64,000 nt of DNA from Marinobacter sp. ATCH36 (GTDB taxonomy: Bacteria; Pseudomonadota; Gammaproteobacteria; Pseudomonadales; Oleiphilaceae), in contig NZ_JAMJPL010000001.1 in assembly GCF_023555055.1 (NCBI RefSeq), forward strand, positions 1 to 64,000, written 5' to 3'. The stretch's first letter is position 1; the number at the start of each line of letters is the position of its first letter. The position numbers and the translations under genes were made by a program. Under the pieces are notes generated by a model. It worked only from the letters and a program-made list of their open reading frames with translations. It was not told the origin of the DNA and made no database searches. Below, piece by piece: positions 5,183 to 17,071 of the stretch.

Positions 5183-7186
5183 ATGTTCAGCAAAATTCTC
5201 ATCGCCAACCGCGGCGAAATCGCCTGTCGGATCATACAGACCGCCCATCGAATGGGTATTCGTGTCGTCGCCGTCTACTCAGATGCCGACGCCGATGCAC
5301 GGCACGTAGCCATGGCGGACGAGGCCTTCAACATCGGCCCGGCGCCCAGCTCGGAAAGCTACCTGAAAGCCGACAAAATTATCGAGGTCGCAAAACAGAG
5401 CGGCGCCCAGGCCATCCATCCGGGTTACGGTTTTCTCTCTGAGAACACCCAGTTCGCCGAAGCCTGCGAAGCCAACAACATTGTCTTTATTGGTCCGCCC
5501 TCATCGGCCATTGCCGCCATGGGTTCCAAGTCCGCCGCCAAATCCATCATGGAAAAAGCCGGCGTACCGCTGGTGCCGGGCTACCATGGTGACGACCAGT
5601 CCCCGGACACCCTGCGCAAAGAAGCCCAGAAATGCGGCTTCCCGCTATTGCTGAAAGCCGTCGCCGGTGGTGGTGGTAAAGGCATGCGGGTCGTAGAGCG
5701 CATGGAAGAGTTCGACGACGCCCTGGCCGCCGCCAAACGGGAATCCAAGAACGCCTTCGGCAACCCCGACATGCTCATTGAACGTTACCTGACCCAGCCG
5801 CGCCACGTGGAAATCCAGGTGTTCTGTGATCAGGATGGCAAAGGCGTGTACCTGGCTGAGCGCGACTGCTCCGTGCAGCGCCGCCACCAGAAAGTGCTGG
5901 AAGAAGCCCCGGCCCCGGGCCTGAGTGACGACACCCGCAAAGCCATGGGCGAAGCGGCGGTCAAAGCCGCCCAAGCCATCAACTACGTCGGTGCAGGCAC
6001 CGTGGAATTCCTCTACGACGTGGACGGCTCATTCTTCTTCATGGAGATGAACACCCGCCTGCAGGTGGAGCACCCGGTTACCGAAATGGTCACCGGCCAG
6101 GACCTGGTGGAATGGCAACTGAAAGTGGCCTGGGGCGACCCGCTGCCACTGGAACAGTGCCAGGTGAAAACCCGGGGCCACGCCCTGGAGGCACGCATCT
6201 ACGCCGAAGACCCGGACCAGGACTTCCTGCCCGCCACCGGCAACCTGCGCTACCTGAGTACTCCTGATGAGAGCGCGCATGTGCGAGTGGATACGGGCGT
6301 CACCGAGGGCGATGAGATCAGCATTCACTACGACCCGATGATCGCCAAACTGATCGTATGGGACGAAACCCGGGGCCAGGCCATCAACCGCATGGTCCAG
6401 GCACTGGAGCACTACCGCATCGCCGGCGTGAAAACCAACATCCGCTTCCTGCACGCCCTGGCCGACGCGCAGCCGTTCCGCGAAGCAGACCTGACTACCG
6501 GCTTCATTGAAGACCATCGCGAGCTGCTGTTTCCAAAATCCAGACTCGACACCCACAAGGCCCTGGTACTGGCCGCAGGCTTCGTACTGGAACAGCGTAA
6601 ATCCCGGGAAGTGATCAGCACCGACCCCTGGTCGCCCTTCGGCCGCCAGAACAGCTGGCGCATAAATTCCGAATACGCCCAGCCCCTGCAACTGCAGGTG
6701 GGTGAGGAAATTCATGAGCTGAAGGTTCTGGAGCGCGACGATCGCTATCAGGTATTCGTCGGCGGCAGTGTCTACAACCTCACGGCCAAACTGGACGACG
6801 ACTACCTGCAAGCCGTTATCAATGGCCACCGCATCAGCATCCACGGCAACCTGCACAACGACAAGCTGGTGCTCTTCTACGAAGGTGACACCTTCCAGTG
6901 CACCGTTTATCGTGAAACCTATGGCTTTGAAGAAATGGCCGGTGACGGCAGCCTCGCTGCCCCCATGAACGGCGCCATCGTGGCGGTACAGGCAAAGGTA
7001 GGCGACAGGGTGACCGCCGGCCAGAGCCTGGTGATCATGGAAGCCATGAAAATGGAACACGCCATCAAGGCCCCGGCCGACGGCGTGGTCACCGACATCT
7101 TCTTCGCCGAAGGCGACCAGGTCTCCGAAGGCGCCGAGCTGATTGCCATTGAAGTGACCGCAGACGCGGAAGAGGAGGCAGGCTGA
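5183..7186 (+). CDS. liuD: Methylcrotonyl-CoA carboxylase alpha subunit (biotin carboxylase/BCCP)
   Basis: This 667-residue protein carries ATP-dependent biotin carboxylase at the N-terminus (about 1-450, with the glycine-rich ATP loop [10 protein letters not shown] and the [16 protein letters not shown] segment). A linker/BT region follows, then a C-terminal biotinyl domain. The biotin attachment motif EAMKMEH places the biotinyl lysine near residue 623. With LiuB it forms methylcrotonyl-CoA carboxylase. The gene begins 2 bp after the liuC stop, with GGAGG overlapping the end of liuC. Its own stop overlaps the liuE start by one base, so translation of the block is probably coupled. Confidence 0.95.
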
Positions 7187-8094
7187 TGGCCTTTCCCCAA
7201 CAAGTACGACTGGTTGAAATGAGCCCCCGGGACGGCCTGCAGAACGAGCCCGGCCCGGTCATCAAAACCCGCATCAAAACCGGCCTGATCGACCGGCTTG
7301 CCGACTGCGGCCTCAACCACATCGAATCCGCCAGCTTCGTGTCCCCGAAATGGGTGCCACAAATGGGCGACGCAGCCGAAGTAATGGCCCGCATCAACCG
7401 CAAACCCGGCGTGCGCTACTCCGTACTCACCCCCAACCTCAAGGGCTTCGAAAACGCCCTGGCGGCCGGTGCAGACGAAGTCGCCGTCTTCGGTGCCGCG
7501 TCCGAGTCGTTTAGCCAGAAAAACATCAACTGCTCCATCGCCGAAAGCCTGGAGCGCTTCCTGCCAGTGATGGAAGCGGCCAAACAACACAACATCCCGG
7601 TACGCGGCTATGTGTCCACGGTACTGGGCTGCCCCTACGAAGGCGACATCGCCCCCGAACAGGTCGCCAAAGTCGCAAAGGCCCTCTACGACATGGGCTG
7701 CTACGAAATCTCCCTGGGCGACACCATCGGCGTAGGCACACCGCTGAAAGCCAAACGCATGCTCGAAGCGGTCACTGCCGAAGTGCCTGTCGAACTCTTA
7801 GCAGCGCACTTCCACGACACCTACGGCCAGGCCCTGGCAAACCTGTACGCCGTACTGGAAGAAGGCGTGTCGGTTATCGACGCCTCGGTCGCCGGCCTCG
7901 GCGGATGCCCCTACGCCAAAGGCGCCTCCGGCAACGTCGCCACCGAAGACGTGCTATACCTGCTTGATGGTTTAGGCATCGAAACCGGCGTCGACCTCAA
8001 CAAGTTGGTCGCAACCGGCGAATGGATTAGCGGACAGTTAAAACGCCACAACGGCTCCAAAGTAGGCCAGGCGCTCGGAGGAAACTGCAAATGA
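7186..8094 (+). CDS. liuE: Hydroxymethylglutaryl-CoA lyase
   Basis: This 302-residue DRE-TIM barrel enzyme cleaves HMG-CoA to acetoacetate and acetyl-CoA, the last step of leucine degradation. The metal- and substrate-binding motif SPRDGLQNE (Arg15, Asp16) and the family signature with the active-site cysteine ([14 protein letters not shown]) are both seen, as is the HFHDTYG metal-ligand segment. The start overlaps the liuD stop (TGATG). The C-terminus overlaps the next start by four bases (ATGA), which indicates that the AhpD-like gene belongs to the same operon. Confidence 0.95.
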
Positions 8095-8669
8095 GCCAGA
8101 ACAAAAACGTAATAGCCCTGGATCTCCCTATCCCGGAGATCAACGACATGCCAGAAGACACCCGTAAGTACTTCCAGATCTGTCAGGAAAAACTCGGCAT
8201 GATCCCGAACGTACTGACCGCCTACAGCCAGAATCTGAAACAACTCGAAGGCTTCACCCGCCTCTACAACGAACTCATGCTCGGCGAAGGCGAACTGAGC
8301 AAACTCGAGCGGGAAATGGTCGCCGTTGTCGTCTCATCAGAAAACAAATGCTACTACTGCCTGGTCGCCCACGGCGCCGCCGTACGGGTACTGAGCGGCG
8401 ACCCCACTCTGGGCGAACACATGATGATGAACTACCGCACCGCCAAACTCGACAAACGCCAGCGTGCCATGCTCGATTTCGCATCCCTGCTCACGCGAAC
8501 ACCAGCCCTTGTCACCGAGGAGAACATCCAGGTCCTGCGGGACGCCGGCCTCAATGACAGCGCCATCTGGGACCTGAGCAACCTGATTGGCTTTTACAAC
8601 ATGTCCAATCGCGTGGCCATCGCCAGCGATATGCAACCAAACCACGAGTATCACAGCCAGAGTCGCTAG
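8091..8669 (+). CDS. AhpD-like/carboxymuconolactone decarboxylase-family protein (peroxidase-related)
   Basis: This 192-residue protein resembles the peroxidase-related branch of the AhpD/CMD superfamily. The redox motif is CYYCLVAHG, with Cys87, Cys90 and the proton-relay His94. Relatives act as alkylhydroperoxidase-like thiol enzymes, but the substrate of this branch is not known. The gene overlaps liuE by four bases, so it is translated with the leucine pathway. A role in removing peroxides formed during acyl-CoA oxidation is possible, but that is inference from context only. Confidence 0.8.
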
Positions 8670-8720
8670 CAGGTTCGACACTGCTCGCCCTCGACGACAA
8701 AAACAATGGAGGCAGACACA

Positions 8721-10409
8721 ATGAGCACGACTCTCCCAAGTTACACCAGCGGTACCTCCGAAGTGCCCCTACTGGGCATGACCATCGGCGAAATGCTCGA
8801 CCGCACCGCCGAGAAATACCCGGACACAGAAGCCCTGGTCGCCCTGCACCAGGATATTCGCTGGACCTACAAAGAGTTCCAGCAGAAGGTCAACGAAGCC
8901 GCCCGTGCCTTCCTGGCCATCGGCGTTGAGCGTGGTGACCGGGTGGGCATCTGGTCCCCCAACCGCTACGAGTGGACGGTCACCCAGTTCGCCACCGCCA
9001 AGGTGGGTGCCATCCTGGTGAACATCAACCCAGCCTACGGCGTGCACGAACTGGAATACGCACTCAACCTGTCCGGCATGCGCTTCCTGGTAACCGCAGA
9101 CAGCTTCAAGACCTCCGACTACCGCAAGATGATCTATGAGCTGGCCCCGGAACTGAACACCAGCCAACCCGGCCAGCTAAAGTCCCGGCGGCTGGAACAA
9201 CTCGAAGGTGTGATCAACCTCGACAAGCGAAGCCACGACGGCATGTGGAGCTGGAGCGAATTCGTCAGCCTGGCTGGCGACGTGACCCAACAACAACTGG
9301 ACAAACGCCAGAGCGTGCTGCAGTTTGATGACCCCATCAACATCCAGTTCACCTCCGGCACCACCGGCAACCCCAAGGGCGCCACCCTCACCCACCACAA
9401 CATCCTCAACAACGGATACTTTGTGGGCGAGAGCCAGCGCCTGACCGAGAAAGACCGCCTGGTGATACCGGTGCCCCTGTACCACTGCTTCGGCATGGTG
9501 ATGGGCAACCTGGGCTGCATCACCCACGGCTCCACCATGATCTACCCGGGCGAAGGCTTCGAGCCCAAATCCGTGCTGCAGGCCGTGCATCAGGAAAAAG
9601 CCACCGCCCTGTACGGCGTGCCCACCATGTTCATCGCCGAACTGGCCGAGCCGGAATTTGAAAGCTACGACCTGTCCAGCCTGCGCACCGGCATCATGGC
9701 CGGCTCCATCTGCCCGGCGGAAGTGATGAAAAAGGTCAACGGCAAGATGAACATGAAGGAGGTCCAGATTGCCTACGGCATGACCGAAACCAGCCCGGTA
9801 TCCACCCAGACCAGCTCCCTCGACCCGTTCGAGAAGCAGGTCACCACCGTGGGCCGCACCCAGCCGCACCTGGAAACCAAAATCGTCGACCCCGCCAATG
9901 GCAACATTCTGCCACGGGGCGAAACCGGCGAACTCTGCACCCGCGGCTACAGCGTGATGCTGAGATACTGGAACAACCAGGAAAAAACCGCCGAAGCCAT
10001 CGACGAAGCCGGCTGGATGCACACCGGCGACCTGGCCACCATGGACGAGGAAGGCTACATTCAGATCGTCGGCCGTATCAAAGACATGGTCATCCGCGGT
10101 GGCGAAAACATCTACCCGAAAGAAATCGAAGAATTCCTCTACACCCACCCGGCCATCGAGGAAGTACAGGTTACCGGTATCCCCGATGACAAGTACGGCG
10201 AAGAACTGATCGCCTGGGTAAAACTGGCCCCGGATGCCGACCCGGTGACCGGCGACGAACTGAGGGAATTTTGCAAGGGCAAGATCGCTCACTTCAAGAT
10301 CCCCCGCAACTACAAGTTCGTGGATGAATTCCCGATGACCGTCACCGGGAAGATCCAGAAGTTCAAGATGCGGGAGATTTCAATTGAGGAGATGGGGTTG
10401 AAGAAGTAG
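8721..10409 (+). CDS. Acyl-CoA synthetase, ACSF2/medium-chain type
   Basis: This 562-residue AMP-forming synthetase would activate a carboxylic acid to its CoA thioester through an acyl-adenylate. The P-loop [12 protein letters not shown], the YGMTETSP motif, the hinge [16 protein letters not shown] and the C-terminal catalytic lysine in TVTGKIQK are all present. The sequence resembles the ACSF2 group (medium-chain acids). I chose the ATG at 8721, preceded by GGAGG at 8709-8713, over an upstream ATG at 8706. As the last gene of the liu cluster it probably activates isovalerate, acetoacetate or a related acid; the substrate is inferred from position. Confidence 0.88.
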
Positions 10410-10440
10410 GCCTTCCCCCCGTTCTTTACGTTCCTACCTC

Positions 10441-10475
10441 AAACCCCAGCTATGTGCTGGGGTTTGTTCTTTTTG
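10441..10475 (+). terminator. Rho-independent terminator of the liu operon
   Basis: AAACCCCAGC (10441-10450) pairs perfectly with GCTGGGGTTT (10456-10465) around the loop TATGT and is followed by TTCTTTTT. It lies 31 bp after the synthetase stop and separates the liu operon from the A+T-rich islet that follows. Confidence 0.92.
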
Positions 10476-10700: not shown

Positions 10701-12512
10701 ATGGAGAAATCTACGACCGGCCTATCGATCAAAGGCGAAAGCATTCAAAGCCTTTACGGATCATATCTTTCAGGAACTTTTCTGGTAAACAGACGATATC
10801 AGAGAAAACTCATATGGACCGTAGAAGAAAAGCGATCTTTTTTGGATTCAATTGCAAAAGACTATCCGGTCCCGTTGATCCTTCTCGCTGAAGTTGGCAC
10901 CGATCTTGGAAGGAGGCTTGAGATCATCGACGGAATGCAACGAATGAATGCAATTATGTCTTTCATTGGTCAGGAATTCGACCTCGAAGGTAGCTATTTC
11001 GATCTTGATACTATGGCCGACACAAAATTATTGAAAGATCAAAATAAACTTACCCAAAAACAACCAGTGCTTGACCGAAGTAAATGTGCCAGCATCGTCA
11101 GATATCAGGTACCGCTTTCTATTTTTCAAGAAACGGGCAACAGTCATGTTGATGAAGTCTTTAGACGATTAAATTCCGGCGGCAGAAAACTTTCAAAGCA
11201 AGAGCTCCGCCAAGCAGGAACCACAAGTAAATTTGCATCGATTGTGAGAAAAATATCTAGCAATATTCGCGGAGACTCCAGCGCATCAGACACTTTGAAT
11301 TTAAGTGCAATGAAAAATATAAGCATTACAAATAAAAATTTAAATTATGGAATCCCAGTAGAAGAAATATTTTGGGTTAAAAATAGCATAATAACAAAAG
11401 AAGCACTTAGACAATCTCAAGATGAAGAAGTAATTGCTGACATCGTCGCTTGGGTCGCAATGGATAAAGGTATTCGATCAAGTTCAGACATCTTGGACCA
11501 ACTATATGGCTTCAAGGAATCCACGAATGGCGATAGTGAGTCCAGTCTCTCATCCACACTGGAAATGCAGATACAGAAAATCAATGAAGATGTGGTCTTA
11601 ACAAATGTTCAATTTGTTCTTGATGAACTTATAAGAGTCGTTGGTAACTCAGGAAAATCTTTTAACTCTCTTTTATTTAGGAACCAACAAGCCAAGATAT
11701 CAAGATACTTTCAAATAGTGTACTTGGCTATCTATTCACTTCTTATTGACGATGGATGTGAGATAGTTGACGAAAAAATGCTTATTCAGCACTTGGATGG
11801 GGCGGGTGACAAGACCATAAAACTGTCAGCAGGCGGTGGGAACTGGTCAGCTAAAGAAAAGCAAACTCAGGTCGACGCTTTGTATGGCGTCATAAGGAAT
11901 TGTTTTGGACGGCCAAAATCAAATGATCCGGCTCGAAATCAGTGGATAACGCGATTTGAAAACATTCTTATGCAGTCTTCGACTGAGCAGAATCTTTATG
12001 ATTTCAAAATTGGGCTACATGATTTAAAAGAAAATTCAAACTCAATAAACAGAAGAACATTCTCAAAAATAATAAAAACTCTAACTGCAATGGCAAACAC
12101 TTTCCCAAGATCAACCGGATATTGTATTTTAGGAGTGTCCGACTCGAAGGAATCGTCAGAAATTCATAAAGAGACCTATGGCTCCGAACCTATAAAGTAT
12201 TCATCATTCTATGTTACAGGCGTGGATGGAGAAGCCAATCGGTACCACAATGACATTGACAAATATTTCACGAAACTAGTTCAATTTATTGATAAAGAAC
12301 CGCTTGCTCAGCGTGATAAAGATAATATCTCCAGGAATATCACCACGGTCCGATACTTTGGCAAAAGCGTCATCATACTTAAGATTGAATCGGGCGACTC
12401 GCCAGCGGTTTACGATGACAAATACTATGTTCGGCACGGGAGTAATATAACGGAGATAGAGCCAGCCAACTTTGGTGACTTATTTTCTCGTTTTCACGAA
12501 AACTCAAAATAA
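10701..12512 (+). CDS. DUF262 (GmrS/DndB-like) protein fused to a C-terminal AlbA_2/Schlafen-type domain
   Basis: This 603-residue protein has an N-terminal DUF262 domain. It shows VNRRYQRKLIW near 29-39, the signature IDGMQR at 76-81, and the later FRRLNSGGRKLSKQELRQA at 154-172. DUF262 occurs in type IV restriction proteins (GmrSD, BrxU, SspE), where it is a nucleotide-dependent ParB/Srx-like module. The C-terminal part (about 440-600) looks like an AlbA_2 (Schlafen-type) domain, with TFSKIIKTLTAMANT, GYCILGVSDS and YYVRHGSN in the usual order. The HNH domain (DUF1524) that usually follows DUF262 is absent. GAGG seven bases before the ATG supports the start. The next gene encodes a GIY-YIG-type nuclease. 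The A+T-rich sequence suggests transfer. The DUF262 call is firm; the AlbA_2 call is probable; function in defence is inference. Confidence 0.8.
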   Translation: MEKSTTGLSIKGESIQSLYGSYLSGTFLVNRRYQRKLIWTVEEKRSFLDSIAKDYPVPLILLAEVGTDLGRRLEIIDGMQRMNAIMSFIGQEFDLEGSYFDLDTMADTKLLKDQNKLTQKQPVLDRSKCASIVRYQVPLSIFQETGNSHVDEVFRRLNSGGRKLSKQELRQAGTTSKFASIVRKISSNIRGDSSASDTLNLSAMKNISITNKNLNYGIPVEEIFWVKNSIITKEALRQSQDEEVIADIVAWVAMDKGIRSSSDILDQLYGFKESTNGDSESSLSSTLEMQIQKINEDVVLTNVQFVLDELIRVVGNSGKSFNSLLFRNQQAKISRYFQIVYLAIYSLLIDDGCEIVDEKMLIQHLDGAGDKTIKLSAGGGNWSAKEKQTQVDALYGVIRNCFGRPKSNDPARNQWITRFENILMQSSTEQNLYDFKIGLHDLKENSNSINRRTFSKIIKTLTAMANTFPRSTGYCILGVSDSKESSEIHKETYGSEPIKYSSFYVTGVDGEANRYHNDIDKYFTKLVQFIDKEPLAQRDKDNISRNITTVRYFGKSVIILKIESGDSPAVYDDKYYVRHGSNITEIEPANFGDLFSRFHENSK

Positions 12513-12732
12513 GATTTAAGTTTTTGCTGACGTCGAGTGATTTCAGTGATTAAGCCAAAAAAGAAGCCAGCGTTACGAATAAACTCAAAAATAGAGACGA
12601 ACAAACATGAGATATGTAAACGCTTCCGATTTTCGGAACAGTTCCGATTTAAACAAAACCGAGACAGAATTATTTTCTGTCGCAAAAAGCAGACAGTAGT
12701 GAGGGCGAACAAAGCCTATCAGAGCACTTGAT

Positions 12733-13299
12733 ATGGAGAAGCGGATAGATACGGTGGAAGTTCATGGCCCGTTCAGTTTTCGAGGGGATAATTCAATTTT
12801 CGGTCACTCCAAAGCCTGGGTGAACGGTTTTTATATTTGGTGCGTCCACATCAAAGATTCACGCTATCGAGCCTACTATGTAGGCGAGGCTGTGGACATA
12901 GCATCGAGGCATAAGTCACACCTCAGGGATTGCCTAAGAGGTAACTATCAGGCTCACTGCCTGGAGGGGCTTCGTGACAACCAGAGCATTTTAATGCACC
13001 GACCGGGCGACGGAATGATTCCTCGTTTTGCCCACATTGATCGCGACAAATTTAACAACGAGTTTGTTGATGAGATGTGTCTCTTTTTCGCGGAGGTTCC
13101 CAGAACCGGCGATAAACAGGCCGACAAGATACTCAGGTGTCGTTACGAGGCGGGGATCGTTCGTCACATTGAAAATGCCGGGAGAAATGTTCTCAATGTC
13201 GGGCGGATCAGTAGTTGGTCGGGTGAACCGAGCCAGATTCGGCTTGAAACCGTTGGTCTAGAGATCGAAGCTCTATCGGGGGAGGTTGTTTCAATCTAA
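12733..13299 (+). CDS. GIY-YIG-type nuclease-like protein
   Basis: This 188-residue protein shows a spaced GIY-YIG pattern: GFYIW at 32-36, YYVGE at 48-52, then DIASRHKSH with the expected catalytic arginine (Arg59). A glutamate suited to metal binding lies in YEAGIVRHIENAG (Glu139), and a downstream asparagine in NVLN (Asn155). GIY-YIG enzymes cut DNA using one metal ion. Here about 80 residues separate Arg59 from the candidate Glu139, longer than in the shortest members. The gene lies 220 bp after the DUF262-AlbA_2 gene on the same strand. Its ribosome-binding site is weak, and a 64-codon open frame ends one base before its ATG, so translation may be coupled. A role as the nuclease partner of the upstream protein is inferred. 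Confidence 0.65.
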   Translation: MEKRIDTVEVHGPFSFRGDNSIFGHSKAWVNGFYIWCVHIKDSRYRAYYVGEAVDIASRHKSHLRDCLRGNYQAHCLEGLRDNQSILMHRPGDGMIPRFAHIDRDKFNNEFVDEMCLFFAEVPRTGDKQADKILRCRYEAGIVRHIENAGRNVLNVGRISSWSGEPSQIRLETVGLEIEALSGEVVSI

Positions 13300-13510
13300 A
13301 CAGTAGTTCCAGTTCGGTCTGGGCCTCCCAGCCACAAGGCCGCCACAAGTACAAAGTGGGATATATTCATTTTCACTCGCAGATTTTGGTCCCGTTCTCA
13401 GCGATTAGCAGTCCGCACCGTTCGTGGCGACATACTGCTTTTGAGCCGATTCTGGCTTTAGGTTAGTATCTGGTGTCCTCTAGGAACTCAAGGAAAGGAG
13501 ACTAGGACAA

Positions 13511-13843
13511 ATGGAATGTCCAACTATTTCCGGACTTCGGCTGGATTATGAAGATCTGGAAGCTATTGAAGCGATCCGAAAAGCCCAGCGTAATGGAAAC
13601 ATGCTGGAAATCATGTTGCCGGCGGGTGTGCTGACAACGATCTTCCTTGGCAATAATTCCGCGCAGGCTGCGTACAACATCCACTCCATGGACTGGGCTC
13701 AGTTTGCAGAAGCAATGACCCACATTTCACCGATGGTCAAAATGAGAATTGTGACCATCTCCCAGATGCAGCGCCTGCGCGCCGGCCTATCCTACGAACA
13801 GACTCAATTCTGGCGTGCAGTGGAAGCGGGGTGTCAGCCATGA
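13511..13843 (+). CDS. Hypothetical protein, 110 residues
   Basis: I do not recognise this protein. It is predicted to be soluble, with two helical stretches (about residues 14-32 and 60-105) and no signal peptide or metal-binding motif. A strong AAGGAG ribosome-binding site at 13494-13499 precedes the ATG, and the stop overlaps the start of the next gene as ATGA. The two genes are therefore almost certainly co-translated. Base composition returns to that of the chromosome here. Confidence 0.6.
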   Translation: MECPTISGLRLDYEDLEAIEAIRKAQRNGNMLEIMLPAGVLTTIFLGNNSAQAAYNIHSMDWAQFAEAMTHISPMVKMRIVTISQMQRLRAGLSYEQTQFWRAVEAGCQP

Positions 13844-14352: not shown

Positions 14353-14809
14353 CAATTCCACCGGCCAAGGAGAGGTTATTGGTTTTTGCGGCTTTAGCCA
14401 CATCACCTTTGCTGGCCGTAAGGAAGTGAGCTTGTACAATGGGGATGGTGACGAAAAGGTCTATTCTTCGCGATTTCGGTGATGGTAATACTGCCGCTTT
14501 TGAGACATACCACAATGATCCCCGCTCTCAGGAGTTCTGTGGTTCCGAGCAGGCCAATGCCTAGCAGGGGGCAGGATGCCCGAGACTTATGGCGGTGGCT
14601 GGGGCGAAGCGTATTTGCCCCAAGCAAAACCTTGCTTACAAAGGACCGGAGGCCCCAGGTCAGGGGTTTAGTTCGTCCTTCCTGTGTTGATTAAGGCGTT
14701 TCATCACCCGGCTCTTTGTTGACTGTTCAAGGTGTGCCTATTATGGAAGGACAGATGCGGACGGAGCAGCAGTTTTCTGAGCCGCAACAGATACCATCAA
14801 GGAAATAAT
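14353..14809. other. 457-bp spacer without a recognisable gene
   Basis: Both strands have short open frames of up to about 85 codons, but none has a plausible ribosome-binding site or family resemblance. The stretch may be an eroded gene. It must also contain the promoter of the PRPP synthetase-like gene at 14810, which I could not place with confidence. Confidence 0.5.
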
Positions 14810-15760
14810 ATGAGCAGTGAGCCGGTTCTGTTTGCACTGGAAGGTAGCCGGGCGTTTGGTCACGCCGTGGCCTCGCAGCTTGGTATTTGCCTGGCTGCCA
14901 ATGAAGACCGCAACTTTGACGATGGCGAACACAAATCCCGGCCACTGGACAGTTTACGGAGCCGGGACGTCTACATTCTCCTCTCCCTGTTTGGCGAAGG
15001 AACGTCGAGCGTGAACGACAAGCTGATGCGCCTGCTGTTTTTTGTCGCCACGGCAAAAGATGCCGGTGCGAAGCGCGTCACCGCGTTGCTGCCGTATCTG
15101 GCCTATGCTCGTAAGGATCGCCGTGGCAAAAACCAGGACCCGGTCACCACACGCTACGTGGCGCAACTGTTCGAAGCCATGGGGGTGGACTGCATGGTGG
15201 CACTGGAAGTTCACAACCAGGGTGCGTTCGACAACGCCTTCCGCTGCCAGACGGTGCACCTGGAAGCCCATGACCTATTCCTCAATGCACTCAAAGACCG
15301 TGTGGGTAAAGAGCCGGTGGTAATCGTTTCCCCCGACGCCGGTGGCACAAAACGTGTGGACCGGTTCCGGGACGCCTGGGCGGATGCCGCCGGCGAACAG
15401 CCACCCACCGCGTTCCTGGAAAAGCACCGCAGAGACGGCAAGGTAACCGGCGATGCCGTGGTTGGGGATATGACGGGCAAGGTTGCCATCATCGTCGATG
15501 ATATGGTCGCCAGCGGCACCACCCTGCTGCGCGCCGCCAAGGCCTGCAGGGAAAAGGGTGCCACTAAGGTTTTCGGGGTGATCACCCACGCTCTGTTCGG
15601 TCCGGGTGCAGAGCAACTTTACAGTGCGGGGGCTATTGATCAGCTTTTCATTACAGACAGCGTGACACCCCAGCAGGAACCGGAGGCCCAGGGCCGGGTT
15701 ACCACCATTCCGGTTGCCGGCCTGTTTGCACAGGCCATTCGGGAGCTGCATACGGACTGA
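14810..15760 (+). CDS. Divergent ribose-phosphate pyrophosphokinase (PRPP synthetase) paralogue
   Basis: This 316-residue protein has the two-domain PRTase architecture of PRPP synthetases. The PRPP-binding loop is VAIIVDDMVASGTTL. A segment like the ATP-binding flexible loop (ARKDRRGKNQDPVTTRYVA) and a conserved SPDAGG are present. Several core positions differ from housekeeping Prs (for example EVHNQGAFDN where DLHAEQIQGFFD is usual), so this is probably a second, specialised enzyme. PRPP synthetases convert ribose-5-phosphate and ATP to PRPP and AMP. The ATG at 14810 with an AAGGA site is chosen over a longer open frame. No other nucleotide-metabolism gene lies beside it. Confidence 0.8.
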   Translation: MSSEPVLFALEGSRAFGHAVASQLGICLAANEDRNFDDGEHKSRPLDSLRSRDVYILLSLFGEGTSSVNDKLMRLLFFVATAKDAGAKRVTALLPYLAYARKDRRGKNQDPVTTRYVAQLFEAMGVDCMVALEVHNQGAFDNAFRCQTVHLEAHDLFLNALKDRVGKEPVVIVSPDAGGTKRVDRFRDAWADAAGEQPPTAFLEKHRRDGKVTGDAVVGDMTGKVAIIVDDMVASGTTLLRAAKACREKGATKVFGVITHALFGPGAEQLYSAGAIDQLFITDSVTPQQEPEAQGRVTTIPVAGLFAQAIRELHTD

Positions 15761-15883
15761 GAGCGTTTACAGGGCGGGATTACCCCGGAGTCGCTGGTGT
15801 CGATGCTGACCAGTGCCGGTTTCAGTATCGACCATGAGTGGCGGCTGGATAAGGGGTCCATTTTTCTTGTCGCCCGCAAGTGA
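15761..15883 (+). pseudogene. C-terminal remnant of a SAM-dependent methyltransferase
   Basis: Directly after the PRPP synthetase stop and in the same frame, 40 codons read ERLQGGITPESL and continue to a tail with TSAGFSIDHEWRLDKGSIF and then LVARK before the stop. This resembles the last 40 residues of class I methyltransferases (AGF-x-I-x-x-x-W near the end, then a final VARK-like strand). It has no start codon or cofactor site of its own. I read it as debris of a gene whose front was replaced. Short match length limits confidence. Confidence 0.45.
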
Positions 15884-16005
15884 CCCCTTCCCTCAATCAC
15901 AACTCAAACAGCGATTTTTAATGCGATGTCGATTTCGCGTGCTCCCGTGCGACTGGATAAGGAACTCATCGAACAAACGGTGTCTGCACACCGGAGGAGC
16001 GGAAA

Positions 16006-16632
16006 ATGCTGAAACTGTACGGAACACCCCCAACCCGAGCCCTGCGAGTTATCTGGTTGCTCAATGAACTGGGCCTGGAGTACGAACTATACCCCATGGA
16101 TCTCCTGCAAGGAGAGCAACATCGGCAAGACTTTCTTTCTCTCAACCCCGCCGCCAAAGTGCCGGTATTGGTCGACGGCAGCCTCGTGGTAACCGAATCG
16201 GCCGCGATCCAGCTTTACCTCGCCGAGAAACATCCCCAAGCGGGTTTTATCCCGGAGGCGATGGCGGACAGAGCCCAGATGTACCGCTGGATTTTCTTCC
16301 TGGTGACTGAGTTGGAACAACCCCTGTGGCGTATTGCGCGTCACACGTTCCTTTACCCGGAAGAGAAGCGGTTGCCTCAGGATATTGAACTCGCGATGCA
16401 GGACGGCAAGGAGATGGTGGCGGTGCTCGAACGACACATGGCGGAACGCGAGTTCATTGTTGGCGAAGGGCTCAGCGTGGCTGACTTCAATGCAGCGTAT
16501 ACGCTGGACTGGGCGAACGAAGAGAAGATGCTCGACAATGCACCAAGGTTGCGGGAATACCTGAAGTCGATGTATGCCCGCCCTACGGCTCCGATAACCA
16601 TCGCAGAAGCGTTTGCGGCCATGGAAAGCTAA
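16006..16632 (+). CDS. Glutathione S-transferase family protein
   Basis: At 208 residues this has the usual GST layout. The N-terminal thioredoxin-like domain (about 1-78) has the cis-proline segment AKVPVLVDGSLVVTESAAI, where the Glu-Ser pair binds the gamma-glutamyl group of glutathione. A helical C-terminal domain follows, with the N-capping box GLSVADFNAAY. GSTs conjugate or reduce electrophiles with glutathione in the cytoplasm. The substrate is unknown. A GGAGGAG ribosome-binding site precedes the ATG. It appears to be a single-gene unit. Confidence 0.88.
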   Translation: MLKLYGTPPTRALRVIWLLNELGLEYELYPMDLLQGEQHRQDFLSLNPAAKVPVLVDGSLVVTESAAIQLYLAEKHPQAGFIPEAMADRAQMYRWIFFLVTELEQPLWRIARHTFLYPEEKRLPQDIELAMQDGKEMVAVLERHMAEREFIVGEGLSVADFNAAYTLDWANEEKMLDNAPRLREYLKSMYARPTAPITIAEAFAAMES

Positions 16633-16753
16633 GCTGTCACTGCGGGGCTGTTGGCACTGGCCGGCATGCGTCATGGTAATATCCAGGCAGCAGTGGATTG
16701 AATCACTGTCTTGGGCACGACCTCATTTCAATGTACTTCACCCAGAGTGATCT

Positions 16754-17071
16754 ATGTCAGACATCGCTAACACCCCCAAAGCTCCCTATTACGCCGTCAT
16801 TTTCAGCAGCCATCGCACTGACGGCGACAACGGCTACGCCGAAATGGCCGCCCGAATGGCGGAACTAGCAGCCCAGCAACCCGGCTATCTGGGCATGGAA
16901 TCCGCCCGGGAGGGTTTGGGCATTACAGTATCCTACTGGGAAAGCCTGGAAGCCATCCGCAATTGGAAGCAGAACGCCGAGCACCGGGAAGCCCAGCAGC
17001 TCGGCCATGAGCAATGGTATTCCAGTTTTCGGGTGCGGATCGCGAAGGTTGAGCGCGAATACGGGATTTAA
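16754..17071 (+). CDS. Antibiotic-biosynthesis-monooxygenase (ABM) domain protein
   Basis: This 105-residue single-domain protein has the dimeric alpha/beta-barrel ABM pattern: an initial strand YYAVIFSS, the segment PGYLGMESAREG, then TVSYWESLEAIRNWKQNAEH, typical of the family. Members act as cofactor-independent monooxygenases or as small binding proteins, and the substrate cannot be told from sequence. It stands alone between the GST gene and a nucleotidyltransferase remnant. Confidence 0.8.
   Translation: MSDIANTPKAPYYAVIFSSHRTDGDNGYAEMAARMAELAAQQPGYLGMESAREGLGITVSYWESLEAIRNWKQNAEHREAQQLGHEQWYSSFRVRIAKVEREYGI

Follow-up and report, generated by a model that had tools for sequence, protein, structure and literature searches.

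A DUF262-AlbA_2 fusion gene of Marinobacter as a candidate stand-alone defence switch beside a cassette-like GIY-YIG-like gene

Introduction

When two genes of defence-like character lie close together on one strand, do they belong to one system? The question is raised by two open reading frames, ORF1 and ORF2, within the first 64,000 nucleotides of contig NZ_JAMJPL010000001.1 of Marinobacter sp. ATCH36, a stretch that we call the window. The original prediction for this locus joined them into a two-gene defence system, in which the nuclease module usual for DUF262 proteins had been replaced by an AlbA_2 domain and cutting was supplied in trans by a GIY-YIG enzyme.

10701-12512, + strand: ORF1, 603 residues; fusion of GmrSD_N (DUF262), a helical middle and a Schlafen-type AlbA_2 domain
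12733-13299, + strand: ORF2, 188 residues; GIY-YIG-like protein, judged to lie outside the ORF1 system

Our analysis confirms both open reading frames and separates them. With a probability of roughly 0.55, ORF1 is a stand-alone switch that senses phages or plasmids, its predicted nucleoside triphosphatase (NTPase) half releasing a predicted ribonuclease (RNase) half, and ORF2 is a stranded integron cassette.

Results

ORF1 was divided by Pfam, structure comparison and alignment of its relatives into the following parts.

10749-11216, + strand: GmrSD_N/DUF262 domain, residues 17-172 (Pfam; BrxU and SspE fold matches)
10926-10943, + strand: IDGMQR at residues 76-81, corresponding to the nucleotide motif DGQQR (alignment of relatives)
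11217-11930, + strand: mostly helical middle, residues 173-410 (model)
11937-12479, + strand: Schlafen-type AlbA_2 domain, residues 413-593 (single Pfam AlbA_2 stretch)

The N-terminal assignment matches PF03235 (GmrSD_N) at E 1.8e-20, over the Pfam cut-off, and the domain is present in 77/77 relatives. Residues D77, G78, M79, Q80 and R81 are invariant in the same 77 sequences, and the ORF1 motif differs at one position from the (I/V)DGQQR of the GmrSD family, DGQQR being the nucleotide motif of BrxU and GmrSD (PMC8565348). In structure comparison, residues 8-400 aligned with BrxU, SspE aligned with the N-terminal domain, and the C-terminal domain matched the tRNase domain of SAMD9 and the catalytic lobe of Schlafens. 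The two domains first proposed from the sequence are thus both borne out. The two-lobed Schlafen core was not seen in ORF1, in which Pfam finds one AlbA_2 stretch and the model shows the preceding 200 residues as mostly helical. The proposal that AlbA_2 occupies the place held by DUF1524, the HNH module, in GmrSD and BrxU is likewise supported: DUF1524 is absent from the six Pfam families reported for the 77 relatives, and a DHIYP-like string occurs in 0/77.

Other collections recognised ORF1 in part. NCBIfam gave no match, and a PDB sequence search with ORF1 alone returned nothing at E <= 1. In a PDB profile search the only matches below 0.1 were BrxU (E 0.0033) and a blue-light photoreceptor (E 0.0031 and 0.00019), the latter judged spurious. 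PADLOC matched the N-terminal half to NsnA, REase_II and PD-T4-2_A (E 1.7e-19 for the last, ending at residue 188) and a short C-terminal piece to PDC-S50; among the models listed, none spans both halves. Structures of viral proteins gave 22 rows at E <= 0.001, led by DUF262/GmrSD_N proteins, and none of the 50 matches listed was named Schlafen or AlbA_2.

If the HNH module is gone, does ORF1 carry a nuclease of its own? We compared the ORF1 profile with 16 ORFs, taken from 16 of 23 AlbA_2 places (hhalign probability 99.0), and built a joint alignment of the ORF1 family with nine of these. Both put three acidic residues of ORF1 at the acidic positions (E, E/D and D) of the pattern E-x4-[E/D]-F-K...G-V-x-D.

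11985-11987, + strand: E429, putative catalytic residue 1, lining up with SLFN13 E205
12000-12002, + strand: D434, putative catalytic residue 2, lining up with SLFN13 E210 and SLFN14 E211
12141-12143, + strand: D481, putative catalytic residue 3, lining up with SLFN13 D248

L120, one of the aligned AlbA_2 proteins, can itself be aligned with solved Schlafens. Adding 13 to the numbering of the SLFN13 construct makes its E-x4-E-F-K and G-V-D-D coincide with E205, E210 and D248; we infer this offset, which is consistent with all three residues. SLFN14-E211A alters the E of EFK, which corresponds to D434. Across the 77 relatives, E stands at the E429 position and K at the K436 position in every sequence. 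At the D434 position 72 relatives have D and 5 have E; at the D481 position 68 have D, 8 have E and 1 has N. Because the catalytic triad of Schlafens is conserved in it, the AlbA_2 domain of ORF1 is probably itself a nuclease, built in where the HNH module would otherwise stand. One point weighs on the other side: a motif of the E-x4-[E/D]-F-K type is present in 14 of the 16 AlbA_2 ORFs compared, and so marks the AlbA_2 family without proving a nuclease.

These assignments suggest how ORF1 might act. The DUF262 part would recognise foreign, perhaps modified, DNA and, like BrxU and SspE, would hydrolyse a nucleotide; in those proteins nucleotide hydrolysis is coupled to recognition of modified DNA (PMC10952713, PMC8565348). 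The movement that follows would uncover the one AlbA_2 domain for cutting transfer RNA (tRNA) or other RNA; translation would stop, and the infected cell would abort the infection rather than have the phage genome cut. Among the animal proteins, SLFN13 cleaves tRNA and ribosomal RNA (rRNA) (PMC5862951), and the translation block by SAMD9L depends on the triad (PMC11221667). A more ambitious version, which we hold tentatively and at somewhat under an even chance, is that ORF1 wires a type IV sensor of modified DNA to a tRNase of the Schlafen/SAMD9 type, so that foreign DNA leads to translation arrest; it would be a bacterial counterpart of the animal AlbA_2 antivirals, spread across phyla and enterobacterial plasmids.

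ORF1 could instead be a restriction enzyme of the usual kind, in which AlbA_2 replaces HNH and cuts the invading DNA, so that the phage genome is destroyed rather than the tRNA pool. The overall framework shared with BrxU, a DNA-cutting enzyme, and the solved complex of the SAMD9 AlbA_2 domain with DNA (7ksp) speak for this. The cleavage of tRNA and rRNA by the closest functionally described AlbA_2 nucleases and the triad-dependent action of SAMD9L on translation argue against it, and no DNase of AlbA_2 fold turned up in this analysis; on balance we consider DNA cutting unlikely.

At E <= 0.001, 1433 proteins among 7991 scored matched ORF1, and both Pfam domains were present in 112 of the 120 matches listed. 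A pattern scan of one genome per species (84,980 species; best 80 of 170 relatives kept) was accompanied by a scan of viral contigs, which found five. Copies with 69-72% identity occur in Zhongshania, Psychromonas, Vibrio and Cyclobacterium, the last belonging to another phylum. Within the genus, 11/124 genomes matched at E <= 0.001, and the only full-length match besides the window's own has 34% identity; with an ORF1 profile in 398 genomes of the phylum, the window's own copy was alone at E <= 1e-40. Plasmids matched in 1521 of 72,556 records; 145 of them match over at least 80% of the query, and there the annotations met name the gene simply as a DUF262 protein. Relatives were located on plasmids of E. 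coli and Klebsiella. In a phage collection 78 records matched, none over 80% coverage. In six plasmid regions, the ORF1 relative adjoins a TIR gene in two (one with a Lit-family gene further along), pemIK in two (one of these relatives being a shortened copy), conjugation genes in one and an addiction antitoxin in one. We infer from this distribution that ORF1 behaves like defence-type cargo spreading by horizontal transfer.

Shortened copies are a separate feature of the plasmid relatives. In a sample of 60 taken evenly from 582, 15 matched over 95-99% of ORF1 and 42 ended at query residue 438. Such relatives (plasmid hits H66-H107), many on enterobacterial plasmids, end before most of the AlbA_2 domain, and one of 436 codons (L144:3986-5296) has an ISKpn19-type transposase gene immediately downstream. 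They seem to have lost the putative effector half and kept the sensor half.

Somewhat less probable again than DNA cutting is that ORF1 is no nuclease: its AlbA_2 domain would only bind nucleic acid, and the protein would serve as a DNA-binding regulator like ParB, or by occupancy as an anti-plasmid factor. Binding alone would hardly demand that, in relatives with as little as 29% identity, the three acidic positions alternate almost solely between D and E, and a patchy, mobile and partner-free distribution is unusual for a regulator.

Does ORF1 have a partner, as a two-gene system would require? A profile of the ORF2 family matched 0/85 loci of ORF1 relatives, 79 of which have at least 1 kilobase (kb) downstream and 60 at least 3 kb on both sides. 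Conversely, a full-length ORF1 was found in 0/4 of the other Marinobacter genomes that hold ORF2. Among neighbours of any kind, 1200 ORFs from the 85 loci were clustered with blastp, which could miss strongly diverged partners; no family lay within 1.5 kb at more than 3/85 loci. The commonest, at three loci each, were an integrase-like and an SRAP-like family (identified by eye and with the help of Pfam matches), and a conserved partner of any kind was rejected. ORF1 stands alone, without a fixed partner. PADLOC at E <= 1e-15 assigned 112 models to 146 proteins adjacent to ORF1 relatives and 50 models to 115 proteins more than 5 kb away (115 of 116, one being omitted because its length was not a multiple of three); these tables count models, many of them redundant, and the excess beside ORF1 relatives hints weakly at a defence neighbourhood.

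What, then, is ORF2? The predicted GIY-YIG identity stands at the level of fold: GIY-YIG structures lead the structural re-alignment of a model of modest quality. It falls short of the Pfam cut-off, with 14.9 bits against 22.6 for PF01541, a weak match that recurs in 14/14 family members. PDB sequences gave matches only at E >= 0.18, with I-TevI best, followed by enterotoxin chains, which we took as chance. The family is small (13 database proteins). ORF2 occurs in 5/124 genomes of the genus and 4/390 of the order, the window's genome being counted in both, and none was found in viral contigs or plasmids. More distant relatives (37-42% identity) lie in G463 and G212; the cassette evidence below refers to the relatives within the genus.

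The four relatives in the genus (G055, G004, G067 and G110) all end in an attC-like site of about 100 bases, running from TCTAAC to GTTA. Further attC-like repeats occur in G067. An integron integrase that passes the TIGR02249 cut-off accompanies the ORF2 relative at a distance of about 0.6-1 kb in both G055 and G067; in G004 and G110 no integrase was seen by eye within the 14 kb fetched. Several relatives are surrounded by toxin-antitoxin-like genes (by eye). In the window itself, a remnant remains.

13295-13334, + strand: left end of an attC-like site, right end missing; 40 bases at the ORF2 stop codon, aligned with the four relatives

The first core site is altered here (TCTAAAC vs TCTAACC), and no right-hand core site GTTRRRY was found on the + strand between 10401 and 14750. 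Neither an intact attC nor an integron integrase was met within reach of ORF2 in the window. Since the relatives end in an attC-like site and the site in the window is degraded, the most likely reading of ORF2 is as a stranded integron cassette whose position beside ORF1 is incidental.

The best match of the window's genome to the G055 integrase covers 62 of its 327 residues and lies on another contig, where a 95-codon open frame (C19:210212-210397) has 58% identity to residues 265-326; it is possibly a relic of a lost integron. The cassette region of G067 contains identical 300-base stretches 7.4 kb apart (L106:5945-6244 and 13334-13633). In two Marinobacter genomes the integron integrase is bordered by ribonucleotide reductase-like genes (by eye), upstream of which lie cobalamin riboswitches (L104:7795-8014 and L106:1-133). 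In the window, Rfam at its gathering threshold found nothing.

That ORF1 senses and binds while ORF2 cuts in trans is very improbable: the two genes do share a strand with 220 bases between them, ORF2 has a GIY-YIG-like fold and residues, and phage defence is known for the GIY-YIG proteins PD-T4-3 and PD-lambda-1 (PMC10952713), but the pairing recurs in neither direction and the ORF2 relatives of the genus are cassette-like, so that we regard a recurrent ORF1-ORF2 system as refuted and reject the two-gene DUF262-AlbA_2 plus GIY-YIG model.

The two genes lie in DNA of low guanine plus cytosine (GC) content. The GC fraction in 500-base windows is 0.35-0.42 in ORF1 and 0.43-0.51 over ORF2, against 0.55-0.63 at 7000-9999 and 0.55-0.62 at 15000-16999. 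Before ORF1 lies an acyl-CoA synthetase gene at 8706-10409 and beyond ORF2 a PRS-type gene at 14732-15760, both assigned to families by Pfam. Among stretches fetched around the PRS-type gene in six related genomes (L109-L114), the content upstream of it differs, with some genes common between them, and the acyl-CoA synthetase gene is retained in 1/6. The site before the PRS-type gene is therefore variable, and may be an insertion hotspot.

10440-10466, + strand: terminator-like stem of 11 pairs, 3' of the upstream acyl-CoA synthetase gene (consensus scan)

The stem suggests separate transcription of ORF1; the scan gave five terminator-like sites vs 2.5 expected from shuffles. Downstream of ORF2 lies ORF3 (13511-13843, 110 residues), which has no Pfam match and no assigned function. 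It has matches in 14/124 genus genomes, the window's included, with 91% and 96% identity in two.

Discussion

If ORF1 acts as we propose, the sensors of type IV restriction are modules that can be coupled to abortive effectors that cut RNA as well as to HNH DNases, and ORF1 links a DNA-sensing front end to a nuclease of the family that includes human Schlafens and SAMD9. The ORF1 family is large, and the 145 plasmid records with at least 80% of ORF1 make a phage or plasmid phenotype easy to look for. The locus also sets right a pairing that misleads, since a passenger from an integron can resemble a partner gene.

For ORF2, the nearest parallel is a class 4-like integron of Aeromonas, in which a GIY-YIG gene is a gene cassette (PMC10609294), as the ORF2 relatives appear to be; Aeromonas orf6 and ORF2 are likened by gene type and cassette setting, not by sequence.

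For ORF1, several described proteins were considered as counterparts and set aside. From the parts of the sources at hand, PFLU4242, a plasmid-cost gene with DUF262, carries DUF1524 (PMC8544851), and neither a Campylobacter DUF262 pair (PMC8713573) nor the HEPN-DUF262 fusions (PMC3710099) are AlbA_2 fusions. PD-T4-2, Menshen and Dazbog are DUF262 systems without DUF1524 and, like ORF1, combine DUF262 with another effector; unlike ORF1, which is one gene, they are not described as AlbA_2 fusions in the available part of that report (PMC10952713). Bacterial Schlafen RNases linked to defence are also known already (PMC12839542). The BREX-associated ones resemble ORF1 in placing a Schlafen-type domain in a prokaryotic conflict protein, and the part of that source at hand does not mention a DUF262 fusion. 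DUF262 with non-HNH partners and defence-linked bacterial Schlafen RNases are thus both on record; for the fusion of the two we found no description in the literature searched, whose coverage largely excludes preprints, which is no proof of absence, and it is apparently undescribed.

The closest comparisons are with the two parent groups. ORF1 shares with GmrSD, BrxU and SspE an N-terminal DUF262 domain with a DG-x-QR motif, a single polypeptide and a mobile distribution; it differs from GmrSD and BrxU in having AlbA_2 instead of DUF1524/HNH and DHIYP, and IDGMQR where they have DGQQR. In contrast to the animal Schlafens, it has a single AlbA_2 domain rather than a two-lobed core, with a DUF262 sensor in front, and it lacks the helicase or STAND region of the SLFN and SAMD9 proteins. 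With SLFN11, SLFN13, SLFN14, SAMD9 and SAMD9L it shares the AlbA_2 fold, the match to the C-lobe and an E/E/D triad in register.
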